The notes below the pieces were generated by a model. The model was given only the letters and a program-made list of their open reading frames with translations. It was not told where the DNA came from and made no database searches. Positions 45,051 through 63,263 of a stretch of DNA of 64,000 nt are shown here, one piece after another (the first letter of the stretch is position 1; every line of letters starts with the position of its first letter). A program made the position numbers and the translations under genes. Where the stretch lies: contig NZ_FPAJ01000001.1 in NCBI RefSeq assembly GCF_900116285.1, forward strand, positions 372,001 to 436,000. The letters are read 5' to 3'. Source of the stretch: Sulfitobacter marinus. Its GTDB lineage: Bacteria; Pseudomonadota; Alphaproteobacteria; Rhodobacterales; Rhodobacteraceae.

Positions 45051-45065
45051 GCTATCTGGCAGTGG

Positions 45066-45108: not shown

Positions 45109-45109
45109 A

Positions 45110-45828: not shown

Positions 45829-45852
45829 AAATTTTCTAAGGCATTGAGAGAC

Positions 45853-46473: not shown

Positions 46474-46484
46474 GTGCTTTCTCC

Positions 46485-46712: not shown

Positions 46713-46741
46713 GGTTTATGTCCTTTCTTTCAAGCTGATGA

Positions 46742-47104: not shown

Positions 47105-47428
47105 GTGCACTCCTATTTATATCAAGGCGCATTTCATAGGCGAGGCATTTGCGTTTTGCGGCCCCACCACGAGAGACTGCGCGGTTCAAAAGATGATGCA
47201 AAACGAAGGGCCGATATACACGGTTTCGCGTGCAGGGCAAGGGGCAATGCGCTGTGTCAAAAGGGTGTGATCGGCTGCTGTCACTATCACGGATCAAAAA
47301 CCACTGTGCTATACTTTTTGTGCGCGCAACTGTTCATTCTTGCGCAGACAGTGTTTGCCCCTGCTGGGTTGCCTACCGCCGTAATTGCGCCATTTAGTCC
47401 ATATGACAATCCAACCGGAGTATTTATC
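47105..47428. other. 324-bp divergent region between rpsF and yceI
   Basis: No gene is seen. TATACT at 47310-47315 is a possible -10 box for yceI, without a good -35. The rpsF leader (minus strand) is where S6:S18 autoregulatory RNA motifs occur in other bacteria; I could not identify one with confidence. Confidence 0.35.
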
Positions 47429-48004
47429 ATGACTTTCAAATCCATCCTGCTAGCCACGGCCCTGACATTGGGTGCAACATCCGCCTTTGCCGCCGAAAAA
47501 TATGTTCTGGACGCCAGCCACAGCCAGATCGTTTTCACCTATAACCACCTTGGGTTTTCCACAACGACCGGCATGTACAGCGGTTTTGATGGCGAAATCA
47601 TGCTGGACGAAGCAGAGCCTGCGAGTTCTTCTGTCACCGTGTCCTTTCCGGTTATGGATATGATCACCGGCTGGCAGCCGCGCACCGATCACTTTATGTC
47701 CCCAGACTTTTTCGGCGCAGCCGAAGGTGACATGGTGACATTCACGTCGACAGGTATCGAAGTGACAGGCGAGAAAACCGGCCTGATCACCGGCGATTTG
47801 ACCATGAACGGCGTAACGAAATCGGTCGTTCTGGATGCCACGCTGAACCAAATGGGCGATCATCCGATGGCGGGCAAACCTTGGGCCGGTTTCGACGCAA
47901 CAACAACGGTTTTGCGCTCGGACTACAACCTTGGCAAGTTCGCGCCTTTCGTGAGCGACGAAGTCAGCATCAACATTTCCATCGAGGCAATGAAAGCGGA
48001 CTAA
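47429..48004 (+). CDS. YceI-family periplasmic lipid-binding protein
   Basis: Protein of 191 residues from ATG 47429 with a Sec signal (ILLATALTLGATSAFA, cleavage near residue 21) and CCGGAG upstream. The YceI lipocalin-like fold shows YVLDASHSQIVFTYNHLGFS, GDLTMNGVTKSVVLDATLNQ and the C-terminal VSINISIEAM. Such proteins bind isoprenoid lipids, often quinone-like. It converges on a cytochrome b561-YceI fusion, so two YceI domains lie side by side. Confidence 0.92.
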   Translation: MTFKSILLATALTLGATSAFAAEKYVLDASHSQIVFTYNHLGFSTTTGMYSGFDGEIMLDEAEPASSSVTVSFPVMDMITGWQPRTDHFMSPDFFGAAEGDMVTFTSTGIEVTGEKTGLITGDLTMNGVTKSVVLDATLNQMGDHPMAGKPWAGFDATTTVLRSDYNLGKFAPFVSDEVSINISIEAMKAD

Positions 48005-48029
48005 GCTTTCTAGCCAAGTGGTTGAAATG

Positions 48030-48062
48030 AAAACGCCGGGGTTAGTGCCCCGGCGTTTTTTT
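48030..48062. terminator. bidirectional terminator between yceI and the b561-YceI gene
   Basis: AAAACGCCGGGG pairs with CCCCGGCGTTTT around a six-base loop, with A run before and T run after, so it can stop transcription from both convergent genes. Confidence 0.88.
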
Positions 48063-48079
48063 ATTTGGCGGCTGGCCGT

Positions 48080-49282
48080 TTATTGCGCAGCGCGGGTTGC
48101 CGTCAGGGCAATATCAATAGCGACATCAAACCCTAGCGTTCCGGCGTCCGTCACGCTGTCACCAATGGCAAAGGCACGTCTGTCCAAGGTCGTTGTGGCC
48201 TGCATCGTCGCAGTGTCGCCATCAATCGTCAGGCTAAAGGGCAGGGACACCGGCACTGACTGGTCTTTTATTGTGAGCGTGCCGTCGGCGAGATATTCGC
48301 CATTTGTCACCGTAATGTCGGCCGCAAATGTGGCGGTGGGGAAGTTTTCAGCGTTGAAAAAATCCGCGCCCATTGCCTGATCCGTGACTGACCCGAGGGT
48401 GAGCGACGGGATTGCGATTGTCGTGGTGACGTTGCCCGCTTTGCCCTCTGTTACCGTTTCGTCAAAGGAAATGGCGGAGGTCCAATCGCTAAAGCTGCCC
48501 TCGACTGCCGAACCGAACTGGCTGACGGTGACGCCGATTGTGCCATCTTGGACCGTCCATTCGGATGCCACCTGCTCCAAAGCGGGCGCAGGGGCCGCGC
48601 CGCCATTCTCGCCAGACAGGCCCACGGCAGCGCTTGCGGCCACAGTGGCTAGCCAGATCGCCGCAGCGGTCAGCACGGGTGCGCTGCTGTGATGTTGGGC
48701 AGGCATGGGGCCGATGGGCGGTTCGCCCGGCAGCATGCGCCGCAGGGTCGAATCGCGATCGATAAAGTGGTGTTTCAGCGCGCCAGCAAAATGCAGGAAC
48801 AACGCGCCCATGAGAACTTTGCCGGAAATGACGTGAATGGCACCAAATAAATGTTCTACATCAGTGCTTTTCGGGACCAGTGGCAAATTTTGGCCAAAGG
48901 GCCACCAGATCGGCGCGAAACCTGACGCGGCGGCGTGGCTGATCCAACCTGCAAGTGGCACAATCACGAGCGACGCGTAGAGCACCCAATGCACGGTTCC
49001 CGCCAGCCAGCTTTCCAGCTTTTTATCCGCGTTCAGCAGCCCCGGTTTGGGTTGGCTTATCGCCCAGATGATCCGTGCCAGCGCCACAAAAAACACCGAA
49101 ACACCCATGGTTTTATGGATCGAGAAGAACCATGCTTTTTGCGTCAGCTGGTCTTGGGTCTCATAGGGTAAATCCTCGGCAAACATGCCAGACCCGATCA
49201 AAGCGATAATCAGTAAAGCCGTCAGCCAGTGAAAAAACTTTGTGACGCCGCCGTAGCGGATTGCGGTGTTGCTAATGGCCAT
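48080..49282 (-). CDS. cytochrome b561-YceI fusion protein
   Basis: Protein of 400 residues. Residues 1 to about 190 are a four-helix di-haem cytochrome b561 with histidines in KFFHWLTALLI, SIHKTMGVS, TVHWVLYAS and GAIHVISGKVL. A single helix and Pro/Ala linker (about 205-235) lead to a YceI domain (about 240-400: WTVQDGTIGVTVSQFGSAVEG, ADGTLTIKDQSVPVSLPFSL, VAIDIALTA). This suggests electron exchange between a periplasm-facing quinone-like ligand held by YceI and the membrane cytochrome. Confidence 0.9.
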   Translation of the reverse strand: MAISNTAIRYGGVTKFFHWLTALLIIALIGSGMFAEDLPYETQDQLTQKAWFFSIHKTMGVSVFFVALARIIWAISQPKPGLLNADKKLESWLAGTVHWVLYASLVIVPLAGWISHAAASGFAPIWWPFGQNLPLVPKSTDVEHLFGAIHVISGKVLMGALFLHFAGALKHHFIDRDSTLRRMLPGEPPIGPMPAQHHSSAPVLTAAAIWLATVAASAAVGLSGENGGAAPAPALEQVASEWTVQDGTIGVTVSQFGSAVEGSFSDWTSAISFDETVTEGKAGNVTTTIAIPSLTLGSVTDQAMGADFFNAENFPTATFAADITVTNGEYLADGTLTIKDQSVPVSLPFSLTIDGDTATMQATTTLDRRAFAIGDSVTDAGTLGFDVAIDIALTATRAAQ

Positions 49283-49424
49283 TTGGGTCTCCGGGTTATG
49301 GGGTTATAGTTTACGTCAAAGCGGTGCGCGGCGGCAATTACGGATATGCGCACAGGGTCGGTGCAGGCTTGTTTGCGCTGACCCCACAGGATAAAGCCGT
49401 TTTAATCAGAAACGGGGGGACCTT

Positions 49425-50357
49425 ATGAGCATTGCATTTGTATATCCGGGCCAAGGCGCGCAAACCATCGGCATGGGCCGTGATCTGGCGGATGCCTATC
49501 CAGCGGCCAAGGCCGTGTTTGACGAGGTCGACGAGGCGCTTGGTGAAAAACTGTCGACATTGATCTGGGAAGGCGAGGCCGAGGCGTTGACCCTGACCCA
49601 GAACGCGCAGCCTGCGTTGATGGCCACATCGATGGCCGCCATGGCCGCGCTGAACGCCGAAGGGATTACCGTTGAAAAGGCCGCATTTGTTGCGGGCCAT
49701 TCCTTGGGTGAATACGCAGCACTTTGTGCGGCAGGCACATTTTCGCTGGCAGACACGGCGCGCTTGTTGCGCATCCGTGGCCGCGCCATGCAAGCCGCTG
49801 TACCGGTTGGGGAGGGCGCAATGGCTGCCCTGCTGGGGCTGACCTTTGAGCAGGCCGAACAGGTTGCTGCCGACGCGGCCCAAGGCGATGTGTGCCAAGT
49901 CGCCAACCAGAACGACCCGGCGCAAAACGTTGTGTCAGGCAGCAAGGCAGCCGTCGAACGTGCGCTTGATCTGGCCAAGGCCGCCGGGGCGAAACGCGCC
50001 TTGCTGCTGCCGGTGTCTGCACCGTTCCACTGCGCGCTGATGGCCCCCGCTGCCGAGGAAATGGCCGAAGCCTTGGCCGGCGTGACGATGAATGCGCCCT
50101 CGGTACCGGTCGTGGCAAACGTGGTGGCCGAGGCCGTCAGCGATCCCGACCAGATCCGCAAGTTGTTGATCGAACAGGTCACTGGGCAGGTGCGGTGGTT
50201 GTCGTCGGTGGAATGGATGGGCGCGCAGGGCGTCACCGAGATCTGGGAAATCGGTGCGGGCAAAGCATTGTCCGGCATGATCCGCCGCATCAACAAGGAA
50301 ATAACTTGTGTGAATGTCGGCACCGCCGCAGATGCAGCGGCAATGAACACCGCGTAA
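49425..50357 (+). CDS. fabD: malonyl-CoA:ACP transacylase
   Basis: Enzyme of 310 residues that loads malonate onto ACP. VYPGQGAQTIGMGRDL at the start, the active serine in GHSLGEYAALCAAG, VSAPFHCALM with the catalytic histidine, and WEIGAGKALSGM near the end. First gene of the fabD-fabG-acpP-fabF cluster. Confidence 0.97.
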   Translation: MSIAFVYPGQGAQTIGMGRDLADAYPAAKAVFDEVDEALGEKLSTLIWEGEAEALTLTQNAQPALMATSMAAMAALNAEGITVEKAAFVAGHSLGEYAALCAAGTFSLADTARLLRIRGRAMQAAVPVGEGAMAALLGLTFEQAEQVAADAAQGDVCQVANQNDPAQNVVSGSKAAVERALDLAKAAGAKRALLLPVSAPFHCALMAPAAEEMAEALAGVTMNAPSVPVVANVVAEAVSDPDQIRKLLIEQVTGQVRWLSSVEWMGAQGVTEIWEIGAGKALSGMIRRINKEITCVNVGTAADAAAMNTA

Positions 50358-50403
50358 ACCCACCCGATAAATACGGCGCAAGCCGCGACTAAAGGATATT
50401 TAT

Positions 50404-51141
50404 ATGTTTGATTTAACAGGTAAAAACGCGCTGATCACCGGGGCATCCGGGGGCATTGGGGCCGATATCGCACGCAGTTTGCATGCCCAAGGCGCGACCG
50501 TGGGACTGTCTGGCACCCGCACTGAGCCGCTTGAGGCGCTCAAGGCCGAGCTGGGCGAACGTGCCCATGTTTTGCCCTGTAACCTAAGCGATATGGACGC
50601 TGTCGAAGCCCTGCCCAAACAGGCGATCGAGGCGATGGGGTCGGTTGATATTTTGGTCAACAACGCCGGTATCACCCGCGATAACCTGTTTATGCGCATG
50701 TCGGATGACGAATGGAATTCGGTGATCAACGTGAACCTCACCGCAACGTTCAAACTGTGCAAAGGCGTGATGCGCGGCATGATGAAATCCCGCTGGGGCC
50801 GGATCGTAAATATCTCAAGCGTCGTGGGGGCAACGGGGAACCCCGGACAGGCCAATTACGCTGCATCCAAGGCCGGTATGGTGGGGATGTCAAAGTCGCT
50901 CGCTTATGAAGTTGCCAGCCGCGGCATCACGGTGAACGCGATTGCACCGGGCTTTATCACCACGGCGATGACCGAAAAACTGACCGATGATCAGAAAACG
51001 GGAATCATGTCGCAAATTCCCGCCGCACGCATGGGTGAGCCGGCGGAAATCGCCGCTGCCGTTGTTTATCTGGCCAGCGCAGAAGCGGCTTATGTTACAG
51101 GGACCACCTTGCATGTGAATGGTGGTATGGCCATGTTATAG
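50404..51141 (+). CDS. fabG: 3-oxoacyl-ACP reductase
   Basis: SDR enzyme of 245 residues reducing 3-oxoacyl-ACP with NADPH. ITGASGGIGADIARSLH, NNAGITRDNLFMRM, the serine in IVNISSVVGATGNPGQ, YAASKAGMVGMSKSLA and ITVNAIAPGFI are exact FabG marks. It lies 46 bp after fabD and 201 bp before acpP. Confidence 0.96.
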   Translation: MFDLTGKNALITGASGGIGADIARSLHAQGATVGLSGTRTEPLEALKAELGERAHVLPCNLSDMDAVEALPKQAIEAMGSVDILVNNAGITRDNLFMRMSDDEWNSVINVNLTATFKLCKGVMRGMMKSRWGRIVNISSVVGATGNPGQANYAASKAGMVGMSKSLAYEVASRGITVNAIAPGFITTAMTEKLTDDQKTGIMSQIPAARMGEPAEIAAAVVYLASAEAAYVTGTTLHVNGGMAML

Positions 51142-51342
51142 CGGCGCGCTGCAAAGCGTTTGCCAAACTTGCGTCTTATGCTAAAGGAGGCGCAGAAACG
51201 AATTTGGGAAGGCTTGATCGCCCCCCATGTCTTGTGTCAACAAGAACCATAGCCGCCCCTCGGGGCACGATCCAAACGGGCCTGCAGGCTTTGGGCGGAA
51301 ACAGAAGAGGGCAAGAGTTGCCCGAATGAATGAGGACAGATT

Positions 51343-51576
51343 ATGAGCGACGTCGCAGAACGCGTAAAGAAAATCGTAGTAGAGCACCTGGGTGTTGAAG
51401 AGGACAAAGTTGTTGAGAACGCGTCGTTCATCGACGATCTTGGCGCAGACAGCCTGGACACTGTTGAACTGGTGATGGCGTTCGAAGAAGAATTCGGCAT
51501 CGAAATCCCAGATGACGCAGCTGAAAACATCCAAACCTTCGGCGACGCGGTCAAATTCATCAAAGAAGCTTCCTAA
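51343..51576 (+). CDS. acpP: acyl carrier protein
   Basis: Acidic 77-residue carrier. The phosphopantetheine serine is in [20 protein letters not shown], followed by [29 protein letters not shown] precedes the ATG. A 201-bp leader separates it from fabG, consistent with an own promoter for this highly expressed gene; I cannot assign the promoter boxes. Confidence 0.98.
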
Positions 51577-51624
51577 GCCTTCTTTCGATGGCCCGCGACG
51601 CGGGTTGATCAGTAAAAATTCTAG

Positions 51625-51664
51625 AAAACGGCGTTCTTTCAAATGGAAAGGACGCCGTTTTTTT
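51625..51664 (+). terminator. terminator of acpP
   Basis: AAAACGGCGT pairs with ACGCCGTTTT, with an inner CTTTC/GAAAG stem and an A+T loop, then a T run. Strong, 48 bp past acpP. Confidence 0.9.
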
Positions 51665-51753
51665 CGTTTGATTTGGCGATTTTACTTGTTTCACCACCGC
51701 AGGTTGGGTGAAAGTGGCGGCGTAATAAGTTTAGCGTGAAAGTAATTCACCAT

Positions 51754-52287
51754 ATGTCTCGAGCTGTACCAACGATCAACACCGCCCGACTGACCTTGAG
51801 GTCAATGCGTTCCGATGATTTCGCCCGTTTTGCGGAAATCTGGGCCACGCCTGAGGTCGTCACCCACATCAGCGGCAAACCCTGGCCAAAAGCGCGGTCT
51901 TGGGATGCATTTTTGCGCAACGCCGGTCATTGGCAGGTCGCGGGATTTGGCCAATGGGCAATCCAGCCGCGCGGCACCCTTGAGATGGCGGGGCAGACCG
52001 GGTTTTTCTTTGGTGCGCGCGGATTTGGTGATGATTTCGACCCTTATCCCGAGGCCGGGTGGGTTTTGTCCCCAGATGCGCAGGGCAACGGGTTGGGCCT
52101 TGAGGCGGCGACTGCGGCCCATGATTGGTTTGACCGCGTTGTGACCGGACGCACCGTCTGTATGATTGATGCGCAAAACGATGTGTCGCTGCATTTGGCC
52201 GATACATTGGGCTATGCGACGCTACGCAATGTAGAGGTCGAGGGCACCAATGTGCGTCTGATGACACGCAAAGGCCCGCCGAACTGA
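51754..52287 (+). CDS. GNAT-family N-acetyltransferase
   Basis: Acetyltransferase of 177 residues (RimJ/RimL-like) from ATG 51754; a GTG at 51736 would add six residues. TINTARLTLRSMRSDDFARFAEIW at the start and the acetyl-CoA site GWVLSPDAQGNGLGLEAATAA are typical, and the end is VRLMTRKGP. It lies between acpP and fabF, unrelated to fatty acid synthesis as far as can be seen. Acceptor unknown. Confidence 0.87.
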   Translation: MSRAVPTINTARLTLRSMRSDDFARFAEIWATPEVVTHISGKPWPKARSWDAFLRNAGHWQVAGFGQWAIQPRGTLEMAGQTGFFFGARGFGDDFDPYPEAGWVLSPDAQGNGLGLEAATAAHDWFDRVVTGRTVCMIDAQNDVSLHLADTLGYATLRNVEVEGTNVRLMTRKGPPN

Positions 52288-52372
52288 AATGGAACTGGTC
52301 TATCGCGTCTTGAAATTCGACACGGTGCCAAGGTATAGCCGACCAACGTAGAAATGCACCAAGGGGCTTGAT

Positions 52373-53632
52373 ATGCGCAGAGTAGTTGTGACGGGTTTGG
52401 GGCTGGTGACGCCTTTGGCCGATGGGGTCGAGGCCAGCTGGGCGAGAATTCTGGACGGTCAATCGGGCGCAGGCCAGATCACCGGTTTTGATCCCAGCCG
52501 TTTGGTCACGCAATACGCGTGCGAAGTTCCCCTTGGCGATGGCACCGACGGTACGTTCAATGCCGACGCCTATATGGAGCCTAAAGAGCAGCGCAAGGTT
52601 GATACGTTCATCTTGTTCGGCATGGCCGCTGCACAGCAGGCCATTGAGGATTCCGGTTGGACCCCGACCGATCGTGAAGATCAGGACCGCACCGGCGTGT
52701 TGATCGGCTCGGGCATCGGCGGGTTGAATTCCATCGCGAACACAGCCGTAATGATGCATGAAAAAGGCCCGCGCCGCGTAAGCCCGTTCTTTGTGCCCGG
52801 CGCGCTGATCAACCTGATTTCGGGGCAGGTTTCGATTCGCTATGGTTTCCGCGGGCCTAACCATTCGGTTGTGACCGCTTGTTCGACTGGCGCGCATGCC
52901 ATTGGTGATGCAAGCCGGTTGATCATTCACGGCGATGCCGATGTGATGATCGCAGGCGGGGCCGAGGCCGCGATTTGCGAAATCGGCATGGCTGGCTTTA
53001 ACGCCTGCAAGGCGCTGTCGACCAAGCGTGGCGACGACCCGACCAAGGCCAGCCGTCCCTATGACGCGGACCGCGATGGGTTTGTCATGGGCGAGGGCGC
53101 AGGAATCGTTGTGCTGGAAGAATACGAACACGCCAAAGCGCGTGGCGCAAAAATTTACGCCGAAGTTCTGGGCTATGGCCTGTCGGGTGACGCATATCAC
53201 ATCACGGCACCTGCCGAAGACGGTGACGGGGCCGAACGGTCCATGCGCAATGCGTTGCGCGGGGCGGGGCTTGAGCCAAAGGATGTCGATTACATTAACG
53301 CCCATGGCACATCGACCATGGCTGACGTGATCGAATTGGGCGCGGTTGAACGTATGCTGGGCGATGCGGTTGAAGGCGTCACCATGTCGTCGACCAAATC
53401 TGCCACCGGACACCTGCTGGGTGCTGCGGGCGCGATTGAGGCGATATTCTCGATCCTTGCGATCCGCGATCAGGTGGCACCGCCCACCATCAACTTGGAA
53501 AACCCGGCTGTTGAGACAAAGATTGATCTGGCTCCGAACAAAAAGGTCGAGCGTAAGATTGATGTGGCGCTTAGCAACTCGTTCGGATTTGGCGGCACCA
53601 ACGCGAGCGTGCTGTTCGGAAAGATCTCCTAA
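52373..53632 (+). CDS. fabF: 3-oxoacyl-ACP synthase II
   Basis: Condensing enzyme of 419 residues. The catalytic cysteine is in VTACSTGAHAIGDA and the two histidines in NAHGTSTMADVIE and KSATGHLLGAAGAIEA; the end reads SNSFGFGGTNASVLF. The stop overlaps the mltG start (TAATG), tying cell-envelope and lipid genes. Confidence 0.97.
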   Translation: MRRVVVTGLGLVTPLADGVEASWARILDGQSGAGQITGFDPSRLVTQYACEVPLGDGTDGTFNADAYMEPKEQRKVDTFILFGMAAAQQAIEDSGWTPTDREDQDRTGVLIGSGIGGLNSIANTAVMMHEKGPRRVSPFFVPGALINLISGQVSIRYGFRGPNHSVVTACSTGAHAIGDASRLIIHGDADVMIAGGAEAAICEIGMAGFNACKALSTKRGDDPTKASRPYDADRDGFVMGEGAGIVVLEEYEHAKARGAKIYAEVLGYGLSGDAYHITAPAEDGDGAERSMRNALRGAGLEPKDVDYINAHGTSTMADVIELGAVERMLGDAVEGVTMSSTKSATGHLLGAAGAIEAIFSILAIRDQVAPPTINLENPAVETKIDLAPNKKVERKIDVALSNSFGFGGTNASVLFGKIS

Positions 53633-54816
53633 TGTGGCGACATATTGCGTCTAACGCGGTGACGTTCCTGATTTTGGGGCTGTTCCTTTTGGGCGGTGTC
53701 ATCCTTTGGGGGCGGGGGCAATATGATGCGCCCGGCCCGCTGGCACAAGCGATTTGCCTGCAGGTCGAACGTGGATCAAACATGCGTGCCGTGGGTAATA
53801 ACCTTGCCGCGCAAGAGGCCGTAAGCTCGGCGATGGTTTTCCGTTTGGGGGCCGAATATGAGGAAAAGACCCAAGCGCTTAAGGCAGGCAGTTTTCTGAT
53901 CCAGCCCGAATCCAGCATGAAAGAGATCGTGGACACGGTCACACGGGGCGGCGCAAGCACCTGCGGCACCGAAGTTGTGTACCGGATCGGCATCAACCAA
54001 ATCAGCACACAGGTGCGCGAGCTTGACCCTGCGACCAGCAAGTATGTTGAACGGGTTGAGTTTACGCCGGGCGTGGACGAGCTGCCTGAGATTTACACCC
54101 AGACCAAAGCCAACGCCGACACGCGGTATCGCATCGCCGTCGCCGAGGGTGTGACCAGTTGGCAAATCGTCGAGGCGATGAAGTCGATTGATTTGCTGGA
54201 CGGTACTGTTGCCGCTGTCCCCGCCGAAGGCACATTGGCCCCTGACAGCTATGAGGCGACCAAAGGCCAAGACCGTAATACCATTCTGGCGTTGATGCAG
54301 GCGGTGCAGGAACAGCGGCTGGCGGAAGCATGGGAAGCGCGTGATCCGGGGCTGCCAATCGAGACGCCGCAAGAGATGCTGATCCTAGCGTCGATCATCG
54401 AAAAAGAGACTGGCGTGCCAGAAGAACGCCGACAGGTGGCCAGCGTGTTTATCAACCGTTTGAACCAAGGCATGCGGTTGCAGACCGACCCGACGGTGAT
54501 CTACGGCATCACCAAGGGCGAGGGTGTACTGGGGCGCGGATTGCGTCGTAGCGAACTGCGGGCAGCGACGCCTTTTAACACCTATGTCATCGACGCTTTG
54601 CCGCCCACACCAATTGCAAACCCGGGTCGCGCAAGCCTGATGGCCGCCGCGCAACCTGCTGAAGAGGATTATGTTTTCTTTGTTGCAGATGGCACCGGCG
54701 GACATGCATTTGCGCAGACTCTGGAAGAGCATAACCGCAATGTGGCTGCTTGGCGTGTGATCGAGGCAGAGCGTGGTGCAGCGGCGGCAGGAAATGCGTC
54801 AACGGGGGGCGATTGA
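53632..54816 (+). CDS. mltG: endolytic murein transglycosylase
   Basis: Inner-membrane YceG-family enzyme of 394 residues that cuts nascent glycan strands. A single N-terminal helix (VTFLILGLFLLGGVILWG) is followed by a LysM-like part and the catalytic domain: LILASIIEKETGVPEERRQVA (glutamate in EKE), LQTDPTVIYGI, YVIDALPPTPIANPGRASL. The gene ends 79 bp before the GTA promoter. Confidence 0.95.
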   Translation: MWRHIASNAVTFLILGLFLLGGVILWGRGQYDAPGPLAQAICLQVERGSNMRAVGNNLAAQEAVSSAMVFRLGAEYEEKTQALKAGSFLIQPESSMKEIVDTVTRGGASTCGTEVVYRIGINQISTQVRELDPATSKYVERVEFTPGVDELPEIYTQTKANADTRYRIAVAEGVTSWQIVEAMKSIDLLDGTVAAVPAEGTLAPDSYEATKGQDRNTILALMQAVQEQRLAEAWEARDPGLPIETPQEMLILASIIEKETGVPEERRQVASVFINRLNQGMRLQTDPTVIYGITKGEGVLGRGLRRSELRAATPFNTYVIDALPPTPIANPGRASLMAAAQPAEEDYVFFVADGTGGHAFAQTLEEHNRNVAAWRVIEAERGAAAAGNASTGGD

Positions 54817-54894
54817 TCCTGCGATTGGGGCTGGAATTTTAAGAATTTCTTAACCATCGTAAGGGCTTGGAAGGTTTTGGTAACTTTGTTTTCC

Positions 54895-54923
54895 TTGACT
54901 TTGCGACCGCTCTGACGTAGATA
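54895..54923 (+). promoter_or_regulatory. predicted promoter of the GTA operon leader
   Basis: TTGACT at 54895-54900 and TAGATA at 54918-54923 are separated by exactly 17 bp, a near-consensus sigma-70 promoter. Initiation would fall near 54931, about 100 bp before the first GTA gene. Confidence 0.72.
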
Positions 54924-54950
54924 TTTAGGCATGCTAGACGAAATGGGCAG

Positions 54951-54979
54951 ACGGCCCCGGATTAACTTCCGGTGGCCGT
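54951..54979 (+). terminator. intrinsic terminator inside the GTA leader
   Basis: ACGGCCCCGG pairs with CCGG-t-GGCCGT (10 bp, one bulged T, eight-base loop) and is followed at once by TTTTTCGTTTTC. It lies about 20 bp after the predicted start of transcription and 52 bp before the first GTA gene, so it could end mltG transcripts, act as attenuator, or define a small RNA. Confidence 0.85.
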
Positions 54980-55030
54980 TTTTCGTTTTCGCTCGGATTT
55001 GGAGGTTCCAAACGAGAGGCTTGAGCAACA

Positions 55031-55375
55031 ATGACTATGATTACCCCGGAGCAAGAGATTGCGACAAGCGAAGAGCATTTCAGCGCGCTTCAATCAGCAA
55101 TCCGCGACCTGCGTCGCGAAATCCAGAGCCTGAAAGAACAGGCCATTTCCGGGGAGGAATTAAATGAAACTGCGGCGTCCAAGGCACTGGCTAAAGCCAG
55201 TGGCATGGTGGCGACTTGCGTCAAAGTGGAGACCTATCTTAATGACTGTAGGAACAGACAAGCGGGCATCGCGCGCGGCGGCTATGCCCTTGATCTTGGC
55301 CGAGCGCGGGCTGAGATCGGGTGCAAGCTGGATAGGCTCCGCCGATGCGGCGCTGCAAGACCAGTTTCTGAATGA
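55031..55375 (+). CDS. GTA small terminase (g1, rcc01682-like)
   Basis: Protein of 114 residues, largely helical (EEHFSALQSAIRDLRREIQSLKEQ, then SKALAKASGMVATCVKVETYL). In R. capsulatus the gene in this position encodes the small terminase subunit that selects DNA for headful packaging. The segment RQAGIARGGYALDLGRARAEIGCKLDRLRR is well formed, so the gene probably continues into the start of the large terminase. First gene behind the leader. Confidence 0.75.
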   Translation: MTMITPEQEIATSEEHFSALQSAIRDLRREIQSLKEQAISGEELNETAASKALAKASGMVATCVKVETYLNDCRNRQAGIARGGYALDLGRARAEIGCKLDRLRRCGAARPVSE

Positions 55376-56654
55376 ACTGGATGAGGGAGAGCTTTTGGCT
55401 CTCCCTTTTTTGTTCGAGTTTTGGGCGATGCCGCATCAATTGCCGCCAGAGGGCGATTGGCGGTCATGGGTGATTTTGGGCGGGCGTGGTGCGGGCAAAA
55501 CCCGCGCCGGTGCCGAATGGGTCCGGTCGCAGGTCGAAGGCGCGCGGCCCCTGGACGCAGGACGCTGCCGGCGCGTAGCGCTGGTGGGCGAGACGATTGA
55601 ACAGGTTCGCGAGGTGATGATCTTTGGCGACAGCGGTATTCTGGCCTGTTCGCCCGCAGACCGGCGGCCTGACTGGGAAGCAATGCGCAAGCGATTGGTT
55701 TGGCCAAACGGGGCGGTAGCATCGGTGCATACGGCGCATGACCCTGAAGGGTTGCGCGGCCCGCAATTTGATGCGGCCTGGGTGGATGAGCTGGCCAAGT
55801 GGAAAAAAGCCGAAGAGACGTGGGACCAGCTGCAGTTTGCCTTGCGGTTGGGGGATGACCCGCGCGTTTGTGTCACGACAACGCCGCGCAATGTGGGGGT
55901 GCTGAAAAAGCTTTTGGCGTCCCCTTCGACGGTACAGACGCACGCGCCAACCGAGGCGAATGCTGCGAACCTCGCAGGCTCGTTTCTGGAAGAGGTACGG
56001 GCGCGTTATCGCGGGACGCGGTTGGGACGGCAAGAGTTGGACGGCGTGTTGCTGGCCGATGCGGAAGGCGCGCTGTGGACATCAGAGATGCTGGAGGCAG
56101 GGCGTGTGTGCGATTTGCCTGTGTTCGACCGGATTGTCGTGGGGGTTGATCCGGCCACGACCGCCGGATCGGCGTCGGATGAATGCGGGATCGTGGTTGT
56201 AGGCGCGCAGACCAATGGGCCGCCACAAAACTGGCGGGCTGTGGTGCTGGCAGATTGCACGGTGCAAGGGGCCACGCCATCGGGTTGGGCGCGCGCCGCG
56301 ATCTCGGCGATGGAGCAGCACGGCGCGGATCGGTTGGTGGTCGAGACCAACCAAGGCGGGTTGATGGTGGGCGAAGTCCTGCGCCAGATCGATCCACTGG
56401 TGCCGTTGAAATCGGTTCATGCATCGCGGGGCAAGGTGGCCCGGGCCGAGCCTGTGGCCGCACTTTATGAACAGGGGCGGGTTGCCCATGTGGCGGGGAT
56501 GGATGCGCTAGAGGATCAGATGTGTCGGATGACCGCGCGGGGGTATGAGGGCAGTGGATCGCCGGACCGGGTGGACGCGATGGTCTGGGCCTTGCACGAG
56601 TTGTTGATTGAACCCGCTGCCCATTGGCGGGCACCGGGGGTGCGATTGCTGTGA
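55284..56654 (+). CDS. GTA large terminase (g2)
   Basis: Packaging motor ATPase/nuclease of 456 residues from ATG 55284; the frame is open further up, with another ATG at 55242, but there it shadows the small terminase. Walker A GGRGAGKTRAGAEWV, Walker B FDAAWVDELAKW, and the nuclease-domain aspartate in VVGVDPATTAGSASDE are intact. It packages random host DNA into GTA heads. Overlap with g1 is about 92 bases; the true start may be slightly different. Confidence 0.9.
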   Translation: MPLILAERGLRSGASWIGSADAALQDQFLNELDEGELLALPFLFEFWAMPHQLPPEGDWRSWVILGGRGAGKTRAGAEWVRSQVEGARPLDAGRCRRVALVGETIEQVREVMIFGDSGILACSPADRRPDWEAMRKRLVWPNGAVASVHTAHDPEGLRGPQFDAAWVDELAKWKKAEETWDQLQFALRLGDDPRVCVTTTPRNVGVLKKLLASPSTVQTHAPTEANAANLAGSFLEEVRARYRGTRLGRQELDGVLLADAEGALWTSEMLEAGRVCDLPVFDRIVVGVDPATTAGSASDECGIVVVGAQTNGPPQNWRAVVLADCTVQGATPSGWARAAISAMEQHGADRLVVETNQGGLMVGEVLRQIDPLVPLKSVHASRGKVARAEPVAALYEQGRVAHVAGMDALEDQMCRMTARGYEGSGSPDRVDAMVWALHELLIEPAAHWRAPGVRLL

Positions 56655-56689
56655 CTGGGCGCGCGCGTGGCGGGCCGGCCCTTCGGGGA

Positions 56690-56710
56690 GAGTTTACTTG
56701 GCAAAATGAA
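56690..56710 (+). repeat. 21-bp intergenic repeat, copy 2
   Basis: Identical to 4087-4107. Here it sits within the GTA operon between the large terminase and portal genes, in a 190-bp gap that otherwise shows no gene. Confidence 0.7.
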
Positions 56711-56844
56711 GCAGCGGGCGCGTGCCGGCGGGCAGCGTACGGTCGGTTTCAGAGGCGTTAAAGGTTTATTGGCAATTTGATTTTGCAGGTGATTTGATTT
56801 TGGGACGACGCGCAGCAGTGACGCGTGCACAGGAGTGGGGCGAT

Positions 56845-58023
56845 ATGGTTTTTGATTTTCTACGGCGCGGGGCGGCGGGTGAATTGCCCGAGCAGAAAGC
56901 ATCGGCGACTGGCCCCACAGTGGCGTATCAGACCGGTGGCCGTGTGGCGTGGAGCCCGCGTGATGCGGTCAGCCTGACACGGGCCGGATTTTGCGGCAAT
57001 CCGGTAGGGTTTCGGTCGGTTAAGTTGATTGCGGAAGCTGCGGCGGCTTTGCCCCTGGTCCTGCAGGATGCTGATCGCCGCTATGAGACGCACCCCTTGA
57101 TGGCGTTGATCAGCCGTCCGAATGGCGGTCAGGGCCGGGCGGAGTTGCTGGAGGCGCTGTACGGGCAGTTGCTGTTGTCAGGGAACGGGTATGTCGAAGC
57201 CGTGGGGGGCGAGGCCGATGTGCCGGTGGAACTGCATGTATTGCGGTCGGACCGGATGTCGGTGGTACCCGGCGCTGATGGATGGCCCGTTGCCTATGAA
57301 TATGCGGTCGGCGGGCGCAAGCACAGGTTTGACGCCAGCGGCCCTGTCGCGCCAGTGTGTCATATCAAGAATTTTCACCCTCAGGATGATCACTATGGGT
57401 TCAGCCCCATGCAGGCGGCGGCGATGGCGATGGATGTGCATACATCCGCCTCGCGGTGGAGCAAGGCGTTGCTGGACAATGCCGCGCGCCCGTCCGGGGC
57501 GATTGTCTATCGGGGTGCGGAGGGGCAGGGCAAGCTAAGCGACGATCAGTATGACCGTCTTGTTTCGGAGATGGAGAGCAACCATCAAGGCGCGCGCAAT
57601 GCGGGGCGGCCGATGTTGTTGGAAGGGGGGCTTGATTGGAAGCCTATGGGGTTCTCCCCCTCGGATATGGAATTTCATAAAACCAAGGAAGCCGCCGCGC
57701 GCGAGATCGCTTTGGCCTTTGGCGTGCCACCCATGCTGCTTGGGATCGCAGGGGATGCGACCTATGCCAACTACCAAGAGGCGCATCGGGCGTTTTACCG
57801 GCTGACTGTGTTACCTCTGGCCACCCGTGTGACCGCTGCCTTGGCACATTGGTTGTCCGGCTTTTCGGGGGAGACGCTCGCGTTGAAGCCGGATCTCGAT
57901 CAGGTGTCAGCATTGGCGCAGGAGCGCGATGCCCAGTGGGCCCGTGTGGCCGGAGCAGATTTCCTGAGCGAGGCAGAGAAGCGCAGCCTGTTGGGCCTGC
58001 CTGCGGTGGCCGCAGATGCGTGA
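56845..58023 (+). CDS. GTA portal protein, HK97 type (g3)
   Basis: Portal of 392 residues from ATG 56845, with AGGAG nine bases upstream; the frame extends 123 bases further up with no homology-like sequence. SLTRAGFCGNPVGFRSVKLIAEAAAALPL and HPLMALISRPNGGQGRAELLEALYGQLLLSGNGY are HK97 portal marks, as are SDMEFHKTKEAAAREIALAFGVPPML and DATYANYQEAHRAFYR. It forms the dodecameric DNA channel. Overlaps the next gene. Confidence 0.93.
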   Translation: MVFDFLRRGAAGELPEQKASATGPTVAYQTGGRVAWSPRDAVSLTRAGFCGNPVGFRSVKLIAEAAAALPLVLQDADRRYETHPLMALISRPNGGQGRAELLEALYGQLLLSGNGYVEAVGGEADVPVELHVLRSDRMSVVPGADGWPVAYEYAVGGRKHRFDASGPVAPVCHIKNFHPQDDHYGFSPMQAAAMAMDVHTSASRWSKALLDNAARPSGAIVYRGAEGQGKLSDDQYDRLVSEMESNHQGARNAGRPMLLEGGLDWKPMGFSPSDMEFHKTKEAAAREIALAFGVPPMLLGIAGDATYANYQEAHRAFYRLTVLPLATRVTAALAHWLSGFSGETLALKPDLDQVSALAQERDAQWARVAGADFLSEAEKRSLLGLPAVAADA

Positions 58024-58240
58024 GGATATCCGGCTTGATCAGTTTGAATGCGCACCGGGGTTGCGGTTGCAGGCGCATGAGCGCGTGAGTGCGATCCACC
58101 ACGAGAACCTTTTGCAGCGGCTGGACCGGCTGGAGGAGATGATGTCGCGGCTGGAGCGGCGATTGTGGCTGACGGTTTACGGTGTCGTGGCTGTTATCCT
58201 GGCACAAGGGGTGCAGTCGTTCTTGGTGGTGCAGCCCTAG
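58016..58240 (+). CDS. GTA head formation protein (g3.5, rcc01685 family)
   Basis: Protein of 74 residues. A coiled helix (HHENLLQRLDRLEEMMSRLERRL) precedes a C-terminal hydrophobic segment (WLTVYGVVAVILAQGVQSFLVV). This small gene between portal and protease is conserved in GTA clusters, where it is linked to head formation. It overlaps the portal gene by eight bases. Confidence 0.85.
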   Translation: MREDIRLDQFECAPGLRLQAHERVSAIHHENLLQRLDRLEEMMSRLERRLWLTVYGVVAVILAQGVQSFLVVQP

Positions 58241-58266
58241 GGATTTGAATTTCAAAGGAGACGGTC

Positions 58267-58875
58267 ATGGAAAATGACATGTTTAACCCCGGCCAAGCGC
58301 CGGGGAACGAGAGAGTTTTGCCGGCAGTCGGCACCGGTCTGGAGCATAAGTTTGCCCGTTTCGGGGGGGGGATCACCGTGGAGGACGGCACCGAGATCAG
58401 CGGCTATGCCAGTCTGTTTGGCGCGGCTGATCAAGGCGGGGACGTGGTGCGCAAGGGTGCCTATGCCGCGTCGCTTGCCGCCGGAACCAAGTCGGGTCAC
58501 CGGATCAAGATGCTGTGGCAGCACGACCCAAGCCAGCCGATCGGCGTGTGGGATGAGGTGCGCGAAGACGCCAAGGGCCTTTGGGTCAAGGGGCGCATTC
58601 TGGACAGTGTGGCACGGGGGCGCGAAGCAGCAGCCTTGGTCGCGGCGGGGGCCATTGACGGGTTGAGCATCGGCTATCGCACGGTGCGGGCCGCCAAGAA
58701 TGACGCGGGCCAACGCATGCTGACCGAGCTGGATTTATGGGAGGTGTCACTGGTGACGTTTCCCATGCTGCCGACCGCGCGGGTCGCGGCAAAGAGTGAT
58801 TTCGTCGCGGTGGGTGATGTGCTGCACGAAATGGCAGAGGCGTTCGAAGACGCGCGGGCACAGCTGAAGTTGTAG
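58267..58875 (+). CDS. GTA prohead protease (g4)
   Basis: HK97-type serine protease of 202 residues (AAAGGAGAC upstream). ISGYASLFGAADQGGDVVRKGAY, the histidine in LWQHDPSQPIGVWDE, and the serine region GAIDGLSIGYRT form the fold. It trims the capsid protein and itself during maturation. Confidence 0.93.
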   Translation: MENDMFNPGQAPGNERVLPAVGTGLEHKFARFGGGITVEDGTEISGYASLFGAADQGGDVVRKGAYAASLAAGTKSGHRIKMLWQHDPSQPIGVWDEVREDAKGLWVKGRILDSVARGREAAALVAAGAIDGLSIGYRTVRAAKNDAGQRMLTELDLWEVSLVTFPMLPTARVAAKSDFVAVGDVLHEMAEAFEDARAQLKL

Positions 58876-58915
58876 AGGCCCGGCCCGAATACCAACTTTA
58901 ACCAAGGGTATGTGA

Positions 58916-60091
58916 ATGGATCAGATGAACACGAAAACACGCGGCGCGTCTGCGTCAGCCGCTGAGGAAGTCCGCGAAGCCGTCACCGGCTTTGTTCAGG
59001 ATTTCAAAGGCTTTCAGGCCGAAATGACGACCAAGTTGCAACAAACAGAAGAGCGAATGACCATGTTGGACAGAAAAATAACTTTGCCTGCGCGTACACC
59101 TTTAGGCGGTGCTGTGGATGCGGGCGCGCCCCATCAAAAAGCGATGAATGCCTATATTCGCAACGGCGATGATGACGGGTTGCGCGGCCTTGAGATGGAA
59201 AGCAAATCCATGTCGTCGGCGGTAAACTCCGATGGCGGCTATCTGGTGGATCCGCAGACGTCGGACCGGGTCAAATCGGTATTGAATGCCACGGCGTCGA
59301 TCCGAGCGATTGCATCGGTCGTACAGGTCGAGGCAACATCTTATGATGTGCTGGTGGACCACACTGACGTTGGCGCTGGTTGGGCCACCGAAGCAGGGGC
59401 CGTGGGCGAAACAGACACGCCGCAGATTGATCGCATCACAGTGCAACTGCACGAGCTGAGCGCCTTGCCCAAAGCGTCACAGCGGCTGTTGGACGATTCC
59501 GCTTTTGACATCGAAGGCTGGCTGGCGGGACGCATCGCGGACAAGTTTTCGCGGGCTGAGGCGGCGGCGTTTATCAACGGTGATGGGATCGACAAACCCA
59601 AGGGTCTGCTGGCGCATGCCGCCGTGGACAATGACGTCTGGGCCTGGGGTAATCTGGGCTATGTGCCGACCGGCGTTGACGGCGAGGTTACGGCGGATGC
59701 TGTGGTTGATCTGGTCTACGCTTTGGGGGCCCAGTACCGCGCGAATGCGAGCTTTGTCATGAGCTCGAAGACCGCGGGCCGGGTGCGCAAGCTCAAGGAT
59801 CTCGATGGCCGTTTCTTGTGGTCTGATGGTCTGGCGCAGGGCGAGCCTGCACGCCTGATGGGCTATCCAGTACTGGTGGCTGAGGACATGCCGGATGTTG
59901 CGACGGATTCATTTTCAGTCGCGTTTGGTGATTTTGCGGCGGGCTATACCGTGGCTGAGCGCCCCGACCTGCGCATCCTGCGTGATCCGTTCAGTGCCAA
60001 GCCGCATGTGCTGTTCTACGCCACCAAACGTGTCGGCGGTGATGTCAGCGATTTTGCAGCCATCAAGCTTTTGAAATTCGGCACCGCGTAA
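58916..60091 (+). CDS. GTA major capsid protein (g5)
   Basis: HK97-fold capsid of 391 residues. An N-terminal coiled delta domain (about 10-60, EVREAVTGFVQDFKGFQAEMTTKLQ) is expected to be removed by g4. The mature part includes NSDGGYLVDPQTSDRVKSVL, ELSALPKASQRLLDDSAFDIEGW and a C-terminal PHVLFYATKRVGGDVSDFAAIKLLKF. Intact and full length. Confidence 0.95.
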   Translation: MDQMNTKTRGASASAAEEVREAVTGFVQDFKGFQAEMTTKLQQTEERMTMLDRKITLPARTPLGGAVDAGAPHQKAMNAYIRNGDDDGLRGLEMESKSMSSAVNSDGGYLVDPQTSDRVKSVLNATASIRAIASVVQVEATSYDVLVDHTDVGAGWATEAGAVGETDTPQIDRITVQLHELSALPKASQRLLDDSAFDIEGWLAGRIADKFSRAEAAAFINGDGIDKPKGLLAHAAVDNDVWAWGNLGYVPTGVDGEVTADAVVDLVYALGAQYRANASFVMSSKTAGRVRKLKDLDGRFLWSDGLAQGEPARLMGYPVLVAEDMPDVATDSFSVAFGDFAAGYTVAERPDLRILRDPFSAKPHVLFYATKRVGGDVSDFAAIKLLKFGTA

Positions 60092-60110
60092 AGCGGCGTC
60101 GAATACGGGG

Positions 60111-60130
60111 CCGGGGCAACTTGGCCCCGG
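60111..60130 (+). other. hairpin after the capsid gene
   Basis: CCGGGGC pairs with GCCCCGG around a six-base loop, 20 bp after the capsid stop, with no T run. A second weak stem (CCCGG/CCGGG followed by TTCCTTTT) lies at about 60190-60210. They may let capsid mRNA exceed the downstream tail genes. Confidence 0.6.
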
Positions 60131-60254
60131 TCCGGGCGCGTGCCGCAAGGTGTGGGTGCATTGTCTAGCTGCTCCCTCCGACCGAGCAATGCAGCCCGGT
60201 ACGCGTCCGGGTTCCTTTTGGGGACAGGGAAGAACGGAATAGATGGAGATTTCC

Positions 60255-60854
60255 ATGATGTTGATCGAAGAGACAAGCGTACCGGATACCGCCTTGCCGG
60301 TTGACGCGTTCAAGGGCCATCTGCGGCTCGGGAGCGGGTTTGGCACCGACAGCTTGCAAGACGAGGTATTGGTTGGATTTCTGCGCGCCGCCCTGGCCGC
60401 AATAGAGGTCCGGACTGGTAAGGTGTTGATGCGGCGTGGGTTTATTTGGTCGCTGAATGCGTGGCGCAGCCCCGAAGGACAGGTGCTTCCTGTAGCCCCG
60501 GTGCATGGGGTGAGCAGCGTGACGCTCGTTTCCCGTGGGGGGATCTCGACCGTGATCGCGGCAGAGCGCTATTGGTTGGAAAAGGACGCGCAGCGCCCGC
60601 TTTTGCGCCCAGCTGACGCGGTTTTGCCCGCCATTCCCAAAGGCGGGACGGTCTCAATTGAGATGGATGCGGGCTTGGGTACGACATGGGATCAAATTCC
60701 ACCTGACCTGCGGCAGGCGGTGTTCTTGCTGGCCGCCCATTATTACGAATTTCGCCATGAAACCAGCCTGAGCGACGGGTGCATGCCCTTTGGCGTCAGC
60801 AGCCTGATTGAGCGGTACAAGACCATGCGCATTGGCTTTGGAGCGGGTACATGA
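60255..60854 (+). CDS. GTA head-tail connector (g6)
   Basis: Adaptor protein of 199 residues from ATG 60255, with TGGAG upstream; ATGs at 60243 and 60258 are also in frame. FKGHLRLGSGFGTDSLQDEVLVGFLRAALAAIE and IPPDLRQAVFLLAAHYYEFRHE resemble phage gp6-like head-tail connectors. It binds the portal. ATGA-coupled to g7. Confidence 0.9.
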   Translation: MMLIEETSVPDTALPVDAFKGHLRLGSGFGTDSLQDEVLVGFLRAALAAIEVRTGKVLMRRGFIWSLNAWRSPEGQVLPVAPVHGVSSVTLVSRGGISTVIAAERYWLEKDAQRPLLRPADAVLPAIPKGGTVSIEMDAGLGTTWDQIPPDLRQAVFLLAAHYYEFRHETSLSDGCMPFGVSSLIERYKTMRIGFGAGT

Positions 60855-61189
60855 AACGGTTGAATCTGAACCGACGCTTGGTGCTAGAGGCCCCCACGCG
60901 CGAGGGCGACGGGGCCGGCGGCTACCGTGTGGTCTGGACGGCGCTCGGCACGTTATGGGCCGAAGTGACTGCGCGCAGTGGGCGCGAGGTAAGTCAAGCG
61001 GGGGTGCCGGTAAGCCGTATGGGCTATGCGATTTGCGTGCGCGCGGCACCGATGGGCAGCGCTGAGCGGCCAGAACCTCAACAGCGGTTTCGCGATGGCG
61101 CGCGGGTCTACAGCATTGAAACGGTGGCGGAGCGTGACCCCCAAGGGCGCTACCTGCTTTGCCTCACACAAGAGGAGCTGATCGTATGA
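60851..61189 (+). CDS. GTA head closure protein (g7)
   Basis: Protein of 112 residues of the SPP1 gp16-like head-closure type: WTALGTLWAEVTARSGREV and QRFRDGARVYSIETVAERDP followed by YLLCLTQEELI. It plugs the portal-adaptor assembly after packaging. Overlaps g6 and g8 by four bases each. Confidence 0.88.
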   Translation: MKRLNLNRRLVLEAPTREGDGAGGYRVVWTALGTLWAEVTARSGREVSQAGVPVSRMGYAICVRAAPMGSAERPEPQQRFRDGARVYSIETVAERDPQGRYLLCLTQEELIV

Positions 61190-61596
61190 GTTATGCCATA
61201 TCAGGACCATTGCAGCAGGCGGTATTTGCGGCTCTTTCGGCGGATCTTGCGCTGACCGATCTGGTCGGGACGGATATCTTTGATGCCGGACCCGTGGGGG
61301 ATGTACCGCCACTATATGTGCGCCTAGGCGACGAAGACGTGCGCGATGCCTCGGACGGGAGCGGCGCGGGGGCGGTGCACCAGTTTGGTATTGCCATCGT
61401 CAGCGCAGCCCCGGGGTTTGCAGATGCCAAACAGGTTGCAGGGGCAATCAGTGATGTTCTGCACAACGCGGATCTGACGCTGAGCAAGGGGCATCTGGTG
61501 AGCCTGCAATTCTCTCGTGCGACGGCTAAATATGTCGCCGCCGCTCAGGTTCGCCAAATCGACATGCAGTTTCGCGCACGTGTGCAGGACGGCTGA
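61186..61596 (+). CDS. GTA tail terminator, DUF3168 (g8)
   Basis: Protein of 136 residues from ATG 61186 (ATGA overlap with g7). LQQAVFAALSADLALTDLVG, VPPLYVRLGDEDVRDASDGSG and LVSLQFSRATAKYVAAAQVRQIDMQFRARV match DUF3168 tail-terminator proteins, which end tail-tube growth and join the tail to the head. Confidence 0.9.
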   Translation: MSYAISGPLQQAVFAALSADLALTDLVGTDIFDAGPVGDVPPLYVRLGDEDVRDASDGSGAGAVHQFGIAIVSAAPGFADAKQVAGAISDVLHNADLTLSKGHLVSLQFSRATAKYVAAAQVRQIDMQFRARVQDG

Positions 61597-61632
61597 GGCA
61601 ACACCCGACATTCATTTTCAAGGAGAACCCAG

Positions 61633-62073
61633 ATGACAGTTCAAGCAGGTAAAGACCTTTTGGTTAAAGTGGACATGACAAGTGATGGCCAGTTCGAAAC
61701 CATCGCGGGCCTGCGCGCCACGCGCATCAGTTTCAACGCTGAACCGGTCGAGGTCACATCGTTGGACAGCAATGGTGGATGGCGTGAGCTTCTGGCCGGT
61801 GCTGGTGTGCGATCTGCTGCGATCAGCGGGTCGGGCGTGTTTCGCGACGCTGGCACGGACGAGCGTGCGCGCCAGTTGTTTTTCGATGGGCTGACCCCCG
61901 ATTTCCAGATCGTCATCCCCAGCTTTGGCATTATCGAAGGCCCGTTTCAGGTTGCCGCGATTGAATACGGCGGATCGCTAAATGGCGAGGCTACCTATGA
62001 GATCAGCATGCAGTCGGCGGGGGAATTGGTCTTTACCCCCGATGTGGTCGTTGACCCGGGCACCGGGGCATAG
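61633..62073 (+). CDS. GTA major tail protein, TP901-1 family (g9)
   Basis: Tail-tube subunit of 146 residues (AAGGAGAACC upstream). AGKDLLVKVDMTSDGQFETIAGLRATRISFN and the loop VTSLDSNGGWRELLAGAGVRSA are typical, and the end is YEISMQSAGELVF. Its polymer makes the short flexible tail. Confidence 0.93.
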   Translation: MTVQAGKDLLVKVDMTSDGQFETIAGLRATRISFNAEPVEVTSLDSNGGWRELLAGAGVRSAAISGSGVFRDAGTDERARQLFFDGLTPDFQIVIPSFGIIEGPFQVAAIEYGGSLNGEATYEISMQSAGELVFTPDVVVDPGTGA

Positions 62074-62077
62074 GCGC

Positions 62078-62392
62078 ATGGCAAATCCGTGGAGGGGGGA
62101 TGTCGCGCTTGTCGTTGACGGGCAACGCCATGTGGCGCGTCTGACGCTGGGGGCCTTGGCCGAGTTGGAGGATACGCTGGAAGAGCCGTCCTTGATGGCG
62201 CTGGTCGAGCGGTTTGAAAGCAACCGTTTCTCAAGCCGCGACGTATTGCGTCTGTTGGTGGCGGGCTTGCGCGGAGGCGGGGTCGAGACGTCCGAAGACG
62301 CCTTGGGACAGGCGCAGATTGACGGTGGCCCCATGGGCGCTGCTAAAGCCGCCGCTGAGCTGTTGGCCCGTGCGTTTGTGGTGCCTGCGTGA
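62078..62392 (+). CDS. GTA tail assembly protein (g10)
   Basis: Protein of 104 residues from ATG 62078, four bases after g9; the frame extends up but only as a shadow of g9. WRGDVALVVDGQRHVARLTLGALAELEDTL is the PF11836-type tail-assembly-chaperone core. It is GTGA-coupled to the next small gene. Confidence 0.88.
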   Translation: MANPWRGDVALVVDGQRHVARLTLGALAELEDTLEEPSLMALVERFESNRFSSRDVLRLLVAGLRGGGVETSEDALGQAQIDGGPMGAAKAAAELLARAFVVPA

Positions 62393-62598
62393 CAGGCCCG
62401 AAGGGTCTTGATTGGCCTGCCATGATGCGGGCCGGTCTTAAGGAGTTGGGGCTGACGCCTGCTGATTTCTGGGCGCTGACTCCGGCAGAGTTGCAGCTGA
62501 TGCTGGGCACGGCGGGGGCGCAAACGCCGTTACTAAGCGATGGATTGTCGGCGTTGATGGCCGCCTATCCCGACACATCGGAAGGGAACGAAAAATGA
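62389..62598 (+). CDS. GTA tail assembly chaperone partner (g10.1, TIGR02216)
   Basis: Protein of 69 residues, GTG start. DWPAMMRAGLKELGLTPADFWALTPAELQLML is the rcc01693-family signature. Phages often make two chaperone forms by frameshifting between such genes; here they are two frames with a four-base overlap. Coupled to the tape measure gene. Confidence 0.87.
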   Translation: MTGPKGLDWPAMMRAGLKELGLTPADFWALTPAELQLMLGTAGAQTPLLSDGLSALMAAYPDTSEGNEK

Positions 62599-63251: not shown

Positions 63252-63263
63252 AGGAGCGCCGAC

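Follow-up and report, generated by a model that had tools for sequence, protein, structure and literature searches.

A conserved promoter-proximal terminator hairpin in the leader of the gene transfer agent cluster of Sulfitobacter marinus and its relatives, a candidate attenuator

Layout of the leader

The window, a 64,000-nucleotide stretch of the Sulfitobacter marinus genome, carries a gene transfer agent (GTA) cluster, in which mltG is followed by the small terminase gene g1, the large terminase gene terL and the portal, protease and capsid genes. By its same-genus matches, the genome belongs to the Sulfitobacter genus group. The DNA between mltG and g1 contains a promoter, a conserved start block and, immediately downstream, a GC-rich hairpin with the form of an intrinsic terminator. 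The main elements are:

54895–54923, forward strand: promoter, with the −35 element TTGACT (54895–54900), a 17-bp spacer and the −10 element TAGATA (54918–54923); of sigma-70 type, read from the sequence and found in 182 of 194 loci at a constant spacing from the start block.
54930–54948, forward strand: conserved start block, CATGCTAGACGAAATGGGC, found in 209 of 239 loci.
54951–54983, forward strand: leader terminator, with a stem at 54951–54979 and a run of five Ts at 54979–54983; identified from a z-score of −4.46, from covariation and from its presence in 199 of 209 loci.
55031–55375, forward strand: g1, the GTA small terminase gene; an open reading frame (ORF) with hidden Markov model (HMM) homologues in 259 of 259 loci.

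The promoter, its 17-bp spacer, the stem, the T-run and the start of g1 were all located where a preliminary description of this DNA had placed them. The identity of g1 as the small terminase follows an excerpt of a published account (PMC6854486).

The loci of relatives were gathered by TerL-based and leader-based searches and sample a single family of genomes, the Rhodobacteraceae. There are 259 of them, all with a g1 recognized by HMM, and 239 are non-redundant at 97% leader identity. Thirty of the 239 have a poor start block and were excluded, leaving 209 for the counts that are anchored on the block; as the block served to select these loci, its conservation among them is partly by construction. 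One locus of the genus was left out of the genus count for its poor block. The loci share a common leader layout, consisting of the −35 element, a spacer with GCG.ACGGTC, the −10 element, the start block, the GC-rich hairpin with its T-run, a second hairpin whose end lies in the ribosome-binding site of g1, and the ATG.

Leader terminator

The stem in the window consists of 11 pairs with a one-base bulge. A 40-nt fold of the hairpin has an energy of −23.3 kcal/mol (z −4.46), which was equalled by none of 200 shuffles. A simple terminator scan omits this hairpin and has no excess over chance between 45000 and 64000 (20 in total vs 22.2 in shuffles). The GC-rich stem-loop lies directly before the T-run and its stem is kept by compensatory changes, as is characteristic of intrinsic terminators. 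Release of an RNA of about 55 nt would be expected at the T-run.

The hairpin recurs throughout the sample. When the 130 nt preceding g1 are considered, 208 of 239 leaders have a hairpin with a T-rich tail at −15 kcal/mol or better, vs 77 of 1195 dinucleotide shuffles, and control windows placed inside g1, away from its end, have terminator-like hairpins in 4, 11, 8 and 2 of 239. Among the 209 block-bearing loci it reaches −15 kcal/mol in 199 (58 of 1045 in shuffles). This limit was used for the main counts; a limit of −10 kcal/mol, at which a stem with T-run is found in 202 of the 209, is too loose, as 238 of 1045 shuffled leaders also reach it. The stem ends about 51 nt after the start of the block, with an interquartile range of 49–54 nt. 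The pair of promoter and hairpin, whose conservation the preliminary description had left to a comparison of relatives, is thus present in close relatives (46 of the 46 non-redundant genus loci with a recognizable block) and in 199 of 209 loci of the family. A terminator-like hairpin reaching −15 kcal/mol occurs in the last 150 nt of 13 of the 30 poor-block loci.

No scoring hairpin was found in the last 130 nt of 23 of the 239 loci. Inspection by eye showed that four of them (L048, L099, L174 and L176) have wrong g1 starts, and none of these four lacks the hairpin in the count anchored on the block; 19 remain, 13 of which are in genomes tested for the GTA regulator GafA. Four loci, L145, L151, L153 and L155, have lost the leader hairpin and kept g1, terL and a GafA-type gene.

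The pairing was further examined with RNAalifold on 90 leaders, which gave 17 pairs, 12 of them with compensatory changes. These leaders were taken from 149 diverse ones in order of good start block, and the pair counts are biased towards well-conserved leaders. In the terminator helices, 90.6% of cells pair, with 101 double changes, vs 35–63% and 14–37 when the partners are slid out of register. The whole structure, including the second hairpin, has 88.8% of cells paired and 171 double changes, compared with 44–53% and 43–72 for slid partners.

Promoter and start block

As a single sequence, the window provides good evidence for the hairpin and weak evidence for the promoter, because the −10 element matches the consensus at just three of six positions and a promoter scan finds no excess over shuffles. 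The −35 element matches at five of six, giving eight of 12 together. The scan, which requires nine of 12, omits this promoter and returns six in 45000–64000 vs 7.6 in shuffles. "Near-consensus", the term used in the preliminary description, was therefore an overstatement.

The assignment of the promoter rests instead on the comparison of loci. In 182 of the 194 best loci, the start block is preceded at 32–36 nt by a TTGACA with at most one mismatch, vs 0–23 of 194 at six control positions. Transcription is predicted to start at about A54931. The conservation of the block (1.9–2.0 bits in GCT.G) is higher than that of the −35 (0.3–1.6 bits) and −10 (0.1–1.0 bits) elements, in a comparison that favours the block, by which the loci were chosen. 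In its own genome the start block is the sole copy with zero mismatches. The block could be a binding site for GafA, an early pause at which GafA is handed over to the polymerase, or an element of the RNA. Upstream of g1 in the genus members L065, L067, L073, L075, L077, L078, L081 and L082, the TTGACT −35 element is lost and the start block and hairpin are kept.

Relation of the hairpin to mltG

The gene upstream of the leader is

53632–54816, forward strand: mltG (YceG-like; Pfam PF02618, E 9.1e-77).

The hairpin might be a plain terminator of mltG, with the promoter match being due to chance or unrelated. In the window (locus L033), mltG lies directly upstream, 78 bp before the −35 element, with no terminator detected between them. 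The hairpin may then stop mltG transcripts too, and, as no separate mltG terminator was found there, may serve both mltG and the leader. In the family, however, the hairpin is independent of mltG. Its distance to the block and to g1 is constant, whereas the distance between mltG and g1 spans 156–366 in the genus loci. Where mltG is at most 300 bp from the promoter, a separate terminator-like hairpin, at the −15 limit, precedes the promoter in 43 of 155 loci vs 45 of 775 shuffles; 42 of these 155 loci have both this upstream terminator and the leader hairpin, the chance level for the upstream one being about 6%. With a limit of −10 kcal/mol, the intervals between mltG and the promoter give 70 of 165 vs 221 of 825 in shuffles. 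One example is Rhodobacter capsulatus SP108 (L261), with a hairpin of −17.2 before the promoter and another of −16.3 in the leader.

The genes upstream of loci that lack mltG are diverse (trigger factor, pseudouridine synthase, SufE, P450, a short-chain dehydrogenase and a MobA-like protein). They were looked at in 15 of 41 such loci, where five are divergent, six are co-oriented and are not mltG, and four have no Pfam family. Three loci with a divergent neighbour retain the hairpin: L014 (DEAD helicase, −23.3), L032 (SpoU methylase, −23.6) and L158 (aminotransferase, −24.2). Two others, L155 and L173, have no leader hairpin. On the strength of the double terminators and the three divergent loci, a terminator serving only mltG, which the preliminary description had listed as an alternative, is rejected for the family, and this explanation of the hairpin is very unlikely.

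Specificity of the leader

Of 196 genomes of the order, 122 contain a single match to R1, a covariance model of the leader, the search filters dropping weak matches. All 31 compared places, which were picked from printed match lists, lie 245–344 bp upstream of a terL match on the same strand. In its own genome, R1 matches the GTA locus with an E value of 1e-12, and the next match has 0.999.

A promoter followed by a terminator is also the shape of a small RNA gene, and the 5′ block is strongly conserved, so that the leader might encode an RNA of about 55 nt with its own target and a function apart from the control of g1. The R1 match adjoins terL in all 31 checked genomes, once per genome, and the hairpin at the g1 ribosome-binding site belongs to the same conserved leader unit. 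Nor does the leader match any Rfam family: nothing was found in the window up to an E value of 5, or at the gathering score in 13 relatives. It is therefore improbable that the leader is a small RNA gene in its own right; a small RNA that arises as a by-product of termination is possible.

A phage ancestor of the leader was not found when 152 bases were compared with 50,697 phage records, and a phage origin is not adopted here.

Further structures in the leader and in terL

Three additional structures are recognized around the leader terminator and g1, the last of them within terL:

54942–54989 (ends approximate), forward strand: possible outer stem, in which the end of the start block pairs with the T-run and the next bases; 93.8% of cells pair.
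54992–55019, forward strand: second hairpin, 54992–55002 with 55008–55016, extending into the g1 ribosome-binding site GAGAGG (55014–55019); 82.5% of cells pair.
55164–56654, forward strand: terL, the large terminase gene; ORF as listed, Pfam PF03237 and PF17289.
55383–55407, forward strand: second terminator-like hairpin with a T-run, lying within the opening codons of terL (motif EGELLALPFLFE); identified by scan, fold and family comparison.

The outer stem has moderate support from the alignment, with 26 double changes that come mostly from one pair and a count of covarying pairs within the control range. In the second hairpin the pairing of 82.5% compares with 30–53% for slid partners; its 44 double changes (12–46 when slid) are by themselves not above every slide. 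This hairpin could control translation of the small terminase.

It is conceivable that these hairpins stabilize the GTA mRNA or tune its translation without terminating in vivo, since the second one reaches into the ribosome-binding site and, with the outer stem formed, the T-run would be base-paired to the start block. However, by the criterion applied, 202 of 209 loci have a T-run after the stem, which a mere stabilizer would not need, and the stability of the leader hairpin equals that of known terminators. This alternative is unlikely.

About as unlikely is an attenuation that is relieved by a signal other than GafA, such as a metabolite, an RNA-binding protein or the ribosome. In R. capsulatus, GTA production is omega-dependent and ppGpp (guanosine tetraphosphate) has an influence on it (PMC9638019), and the conserved shape of the RNA could suit a ligand. 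There is no match to an Rfam riboswitch, and RNAalifold gave no competing fold, although alternative folds were not searched for systematically. The ATG of a would-be leader peptide is present in only 122 of 209 loci, its frame ranging from four to more than 60 codons. As this start-block ATG is replaced by AAG, ACG or another triplet in the other 87, a leader peptide was rejected.

The true start of terL is probably further in than that of the listed ORF. The hairpin in its first codons is terminator-like in 140 of 231 loci vs 87 expected from synonymous resampling; for 113 of the 231 it is at −10 kcal/mol or better and is equalled by no more than three of 60 resamples. It is found in 41 of 47 genus loci and is absent in R. 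capsulatus. It is thus an additional layer that some members of the family have.

GafA and the leader

The genome of the window has one GafA-type gene, with DUF6456 in the C-terminal part of its product (E 4.2e-61). The DUF6456 family was also found in Caulobacter vibrioides. According to PMC6363796, GafA of R. capsulatus bound a single one among five probes of 50 bp, located 76–125 bp upstream of g1, which contains the −10 element and the transcription start; its C-terminal part binds the same location (PMC9638019, in excerpt). In L261, counted upstream from g1, the start block spans 95 to 77 bp, the −10 region lies at about 101–107 and TTGACT at 129. If the annotated g1 start is the ATG that was used, and if strain SB1003 agrees with SP108, the bound probe would cover the spacer, the −10 element and the whole block and would end before the hairpin. 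The positions found here thus agree with the published electrophoretic mobility-shift assay, the binding data being from R. capsulatus alone.

In the passages available of the work on Caulobacter (PMC11150451), GafZ binds within the promoter, associates with Nus factors and RNA polymerase, and enables some of the polymerase to read past terGTA and the Escherichia coli terminator rrnB T1. The same passages suggest that GafA might have an unrecognized anti-termination activity and do not report the Rhodobacterales leader hairpin. By analogy with GafZ, whose published properties strengthen the case, we infer that GafA may be an antiterminator.

The segment 54895–55031 is accordingly best described as a control leader of the GTA cluster, with a promoter-proximal attenuator that is probably overridden by GafA; a probability of roughly 0.58 is assigned to this interpretation. 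It is supported because the hairpin is kept in relatives and is not solely the terminator of mltG, in line with the attenuation or antitermination suggested in the preliminary description; termination in vivo is here a prediction from sequence. Unaided RNA polymerase would stop at about 54983–54986 and free an RNA of about 55 nt. GafA would bind the promoter and the start block, move onto the elongating polymerase by means of its GafZ-like C-terminal half, and carry it through the leader terminator and, in many marine relatives, also through the terL hairpin. The good −35 element of most species could fire without an activator, in which case the terminator would act as a guard.

Several observations weigh against GafA-relieved attenuation. 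In eight of 46 genus loci there is no −35 element, yet the block and the hairpin are kept, so that the combination of a strong promoter and a terminator does not hold everywhere; in these loci the promoter may be fully activator-dependent. A DUF6456 gene is present in 59 of 59 tested genomes, including 13 of 13 hairpin-less ones. Hence GafA does not require the hairpin, and co-occurrence of the two discriminates nothing. GafA, which contacts omega (PMC9638019, in excerpt), could act as a plain activator. In Caulobacter, terGTA lies after the first gene, outside the leader (PMC11150451, in excerpt). In 27 loci from other families of the class, where g1 was not reliably found, no R1 match had an E value below 0.3, and no firm conclusion can be drawn from them.

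The leader might, in a somewhat more tentative proposal that falls a little short of even odds, represent a domesticated Q-type late switch reduced to a compact module of promoter, block and terminator. The fused GafA protein would serve first as the activator and then as a processive antiterminator, and the terL hairpin would be a second checkpoint in many marine lineages. If this is true, two keys are needed, which would help to keep the GTA cluster silent in most cells.

Comparison with known systems

In the late control of phage lambda, Q acts at pR′ and tR′: a factor bound at the promoter, a short terminated RNA and readthrough into the late, structural genes are its features, shared by similar late antiterminators. 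The proposed leader switch would work likewise, with a shorter distance to the terminator in the GTA leader, where pausing is a possibility. Another relevant case is UpsM, an RNA from the leader of the dcw cluster in Rhodobacter sphaeroides, where a promoter is followed by a terminator in the 5′ leader, giving a short RNA. UpsM differs from the GTA leader in belonging to another operon, in the greater length of its RNA and in having no phage-type regulator.

The closest parallel is the control of the GTA cluster of Caulobacter crescentus. The excerpted account of it (PMC11150451), in which Q and AlpA are named as antiterminators, describes a GafA-related activator, an antiterminator loading site within the promoter and a terminator early in the transcription unit, which have counterparts here, the loading site within the promoter being a putative one. 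The differences are that terGTA consists of three 150-bp repeats after the first gene, whereas the leader described here has one intrinsic terminator some 50 nt downstream of the start; that GafY, which activates together with IHF (integration host factor), and GafZ, which antiterminates at terGTA, are separate proteins, whereas GafA is one protein; and that the Caulobacter −35 element is poor (AATCAT), whereas here it is usually TTGACT (PMC11150451). The terL hairpin, which sits after the first gene, has the same relative place as terGTA (PMC11150451).

For the best-studied GTA system, it is an open question what keeps expression off in the majority of cells and how the whole cluster then comes on. 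The leader supplies a candidate target for antitermination by GafA, in R. capsulatus too, about 50 nt after the start and beside the DNA that GafA binds, and suggests a second lock on a virus-like system whose producer cells die. It is also an RNA leader that is widespread in a large bacterial family and that had no Rfam match in the sequences compared. A search of the open-licence papers in PubMed Central gave no earlier description of this leader terminator. Reporters with and without the leader hairpin may differ in behaviour, and R1 can serve as a genome-search model for GTA promoters.

Leaders in viral contigs

Scanning of viral contigs with the start block alone returned 36, of which 34 have the full leader and a terL match (only the first part of terL in L313); the remaining two have neither. 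These 34 of 36 contigs, which are filed as viral in IMG/VR (within L308–L343), look like GTA clusters binned as viruses, and 21 of the 34 carry the host gene mltG. In L313, between 2138 and 5500, the GTA terL seems to be cut after about 33 matched residues and is followed by other, partly phage-like ORFs, which may be an insertion into the GTA cluster.
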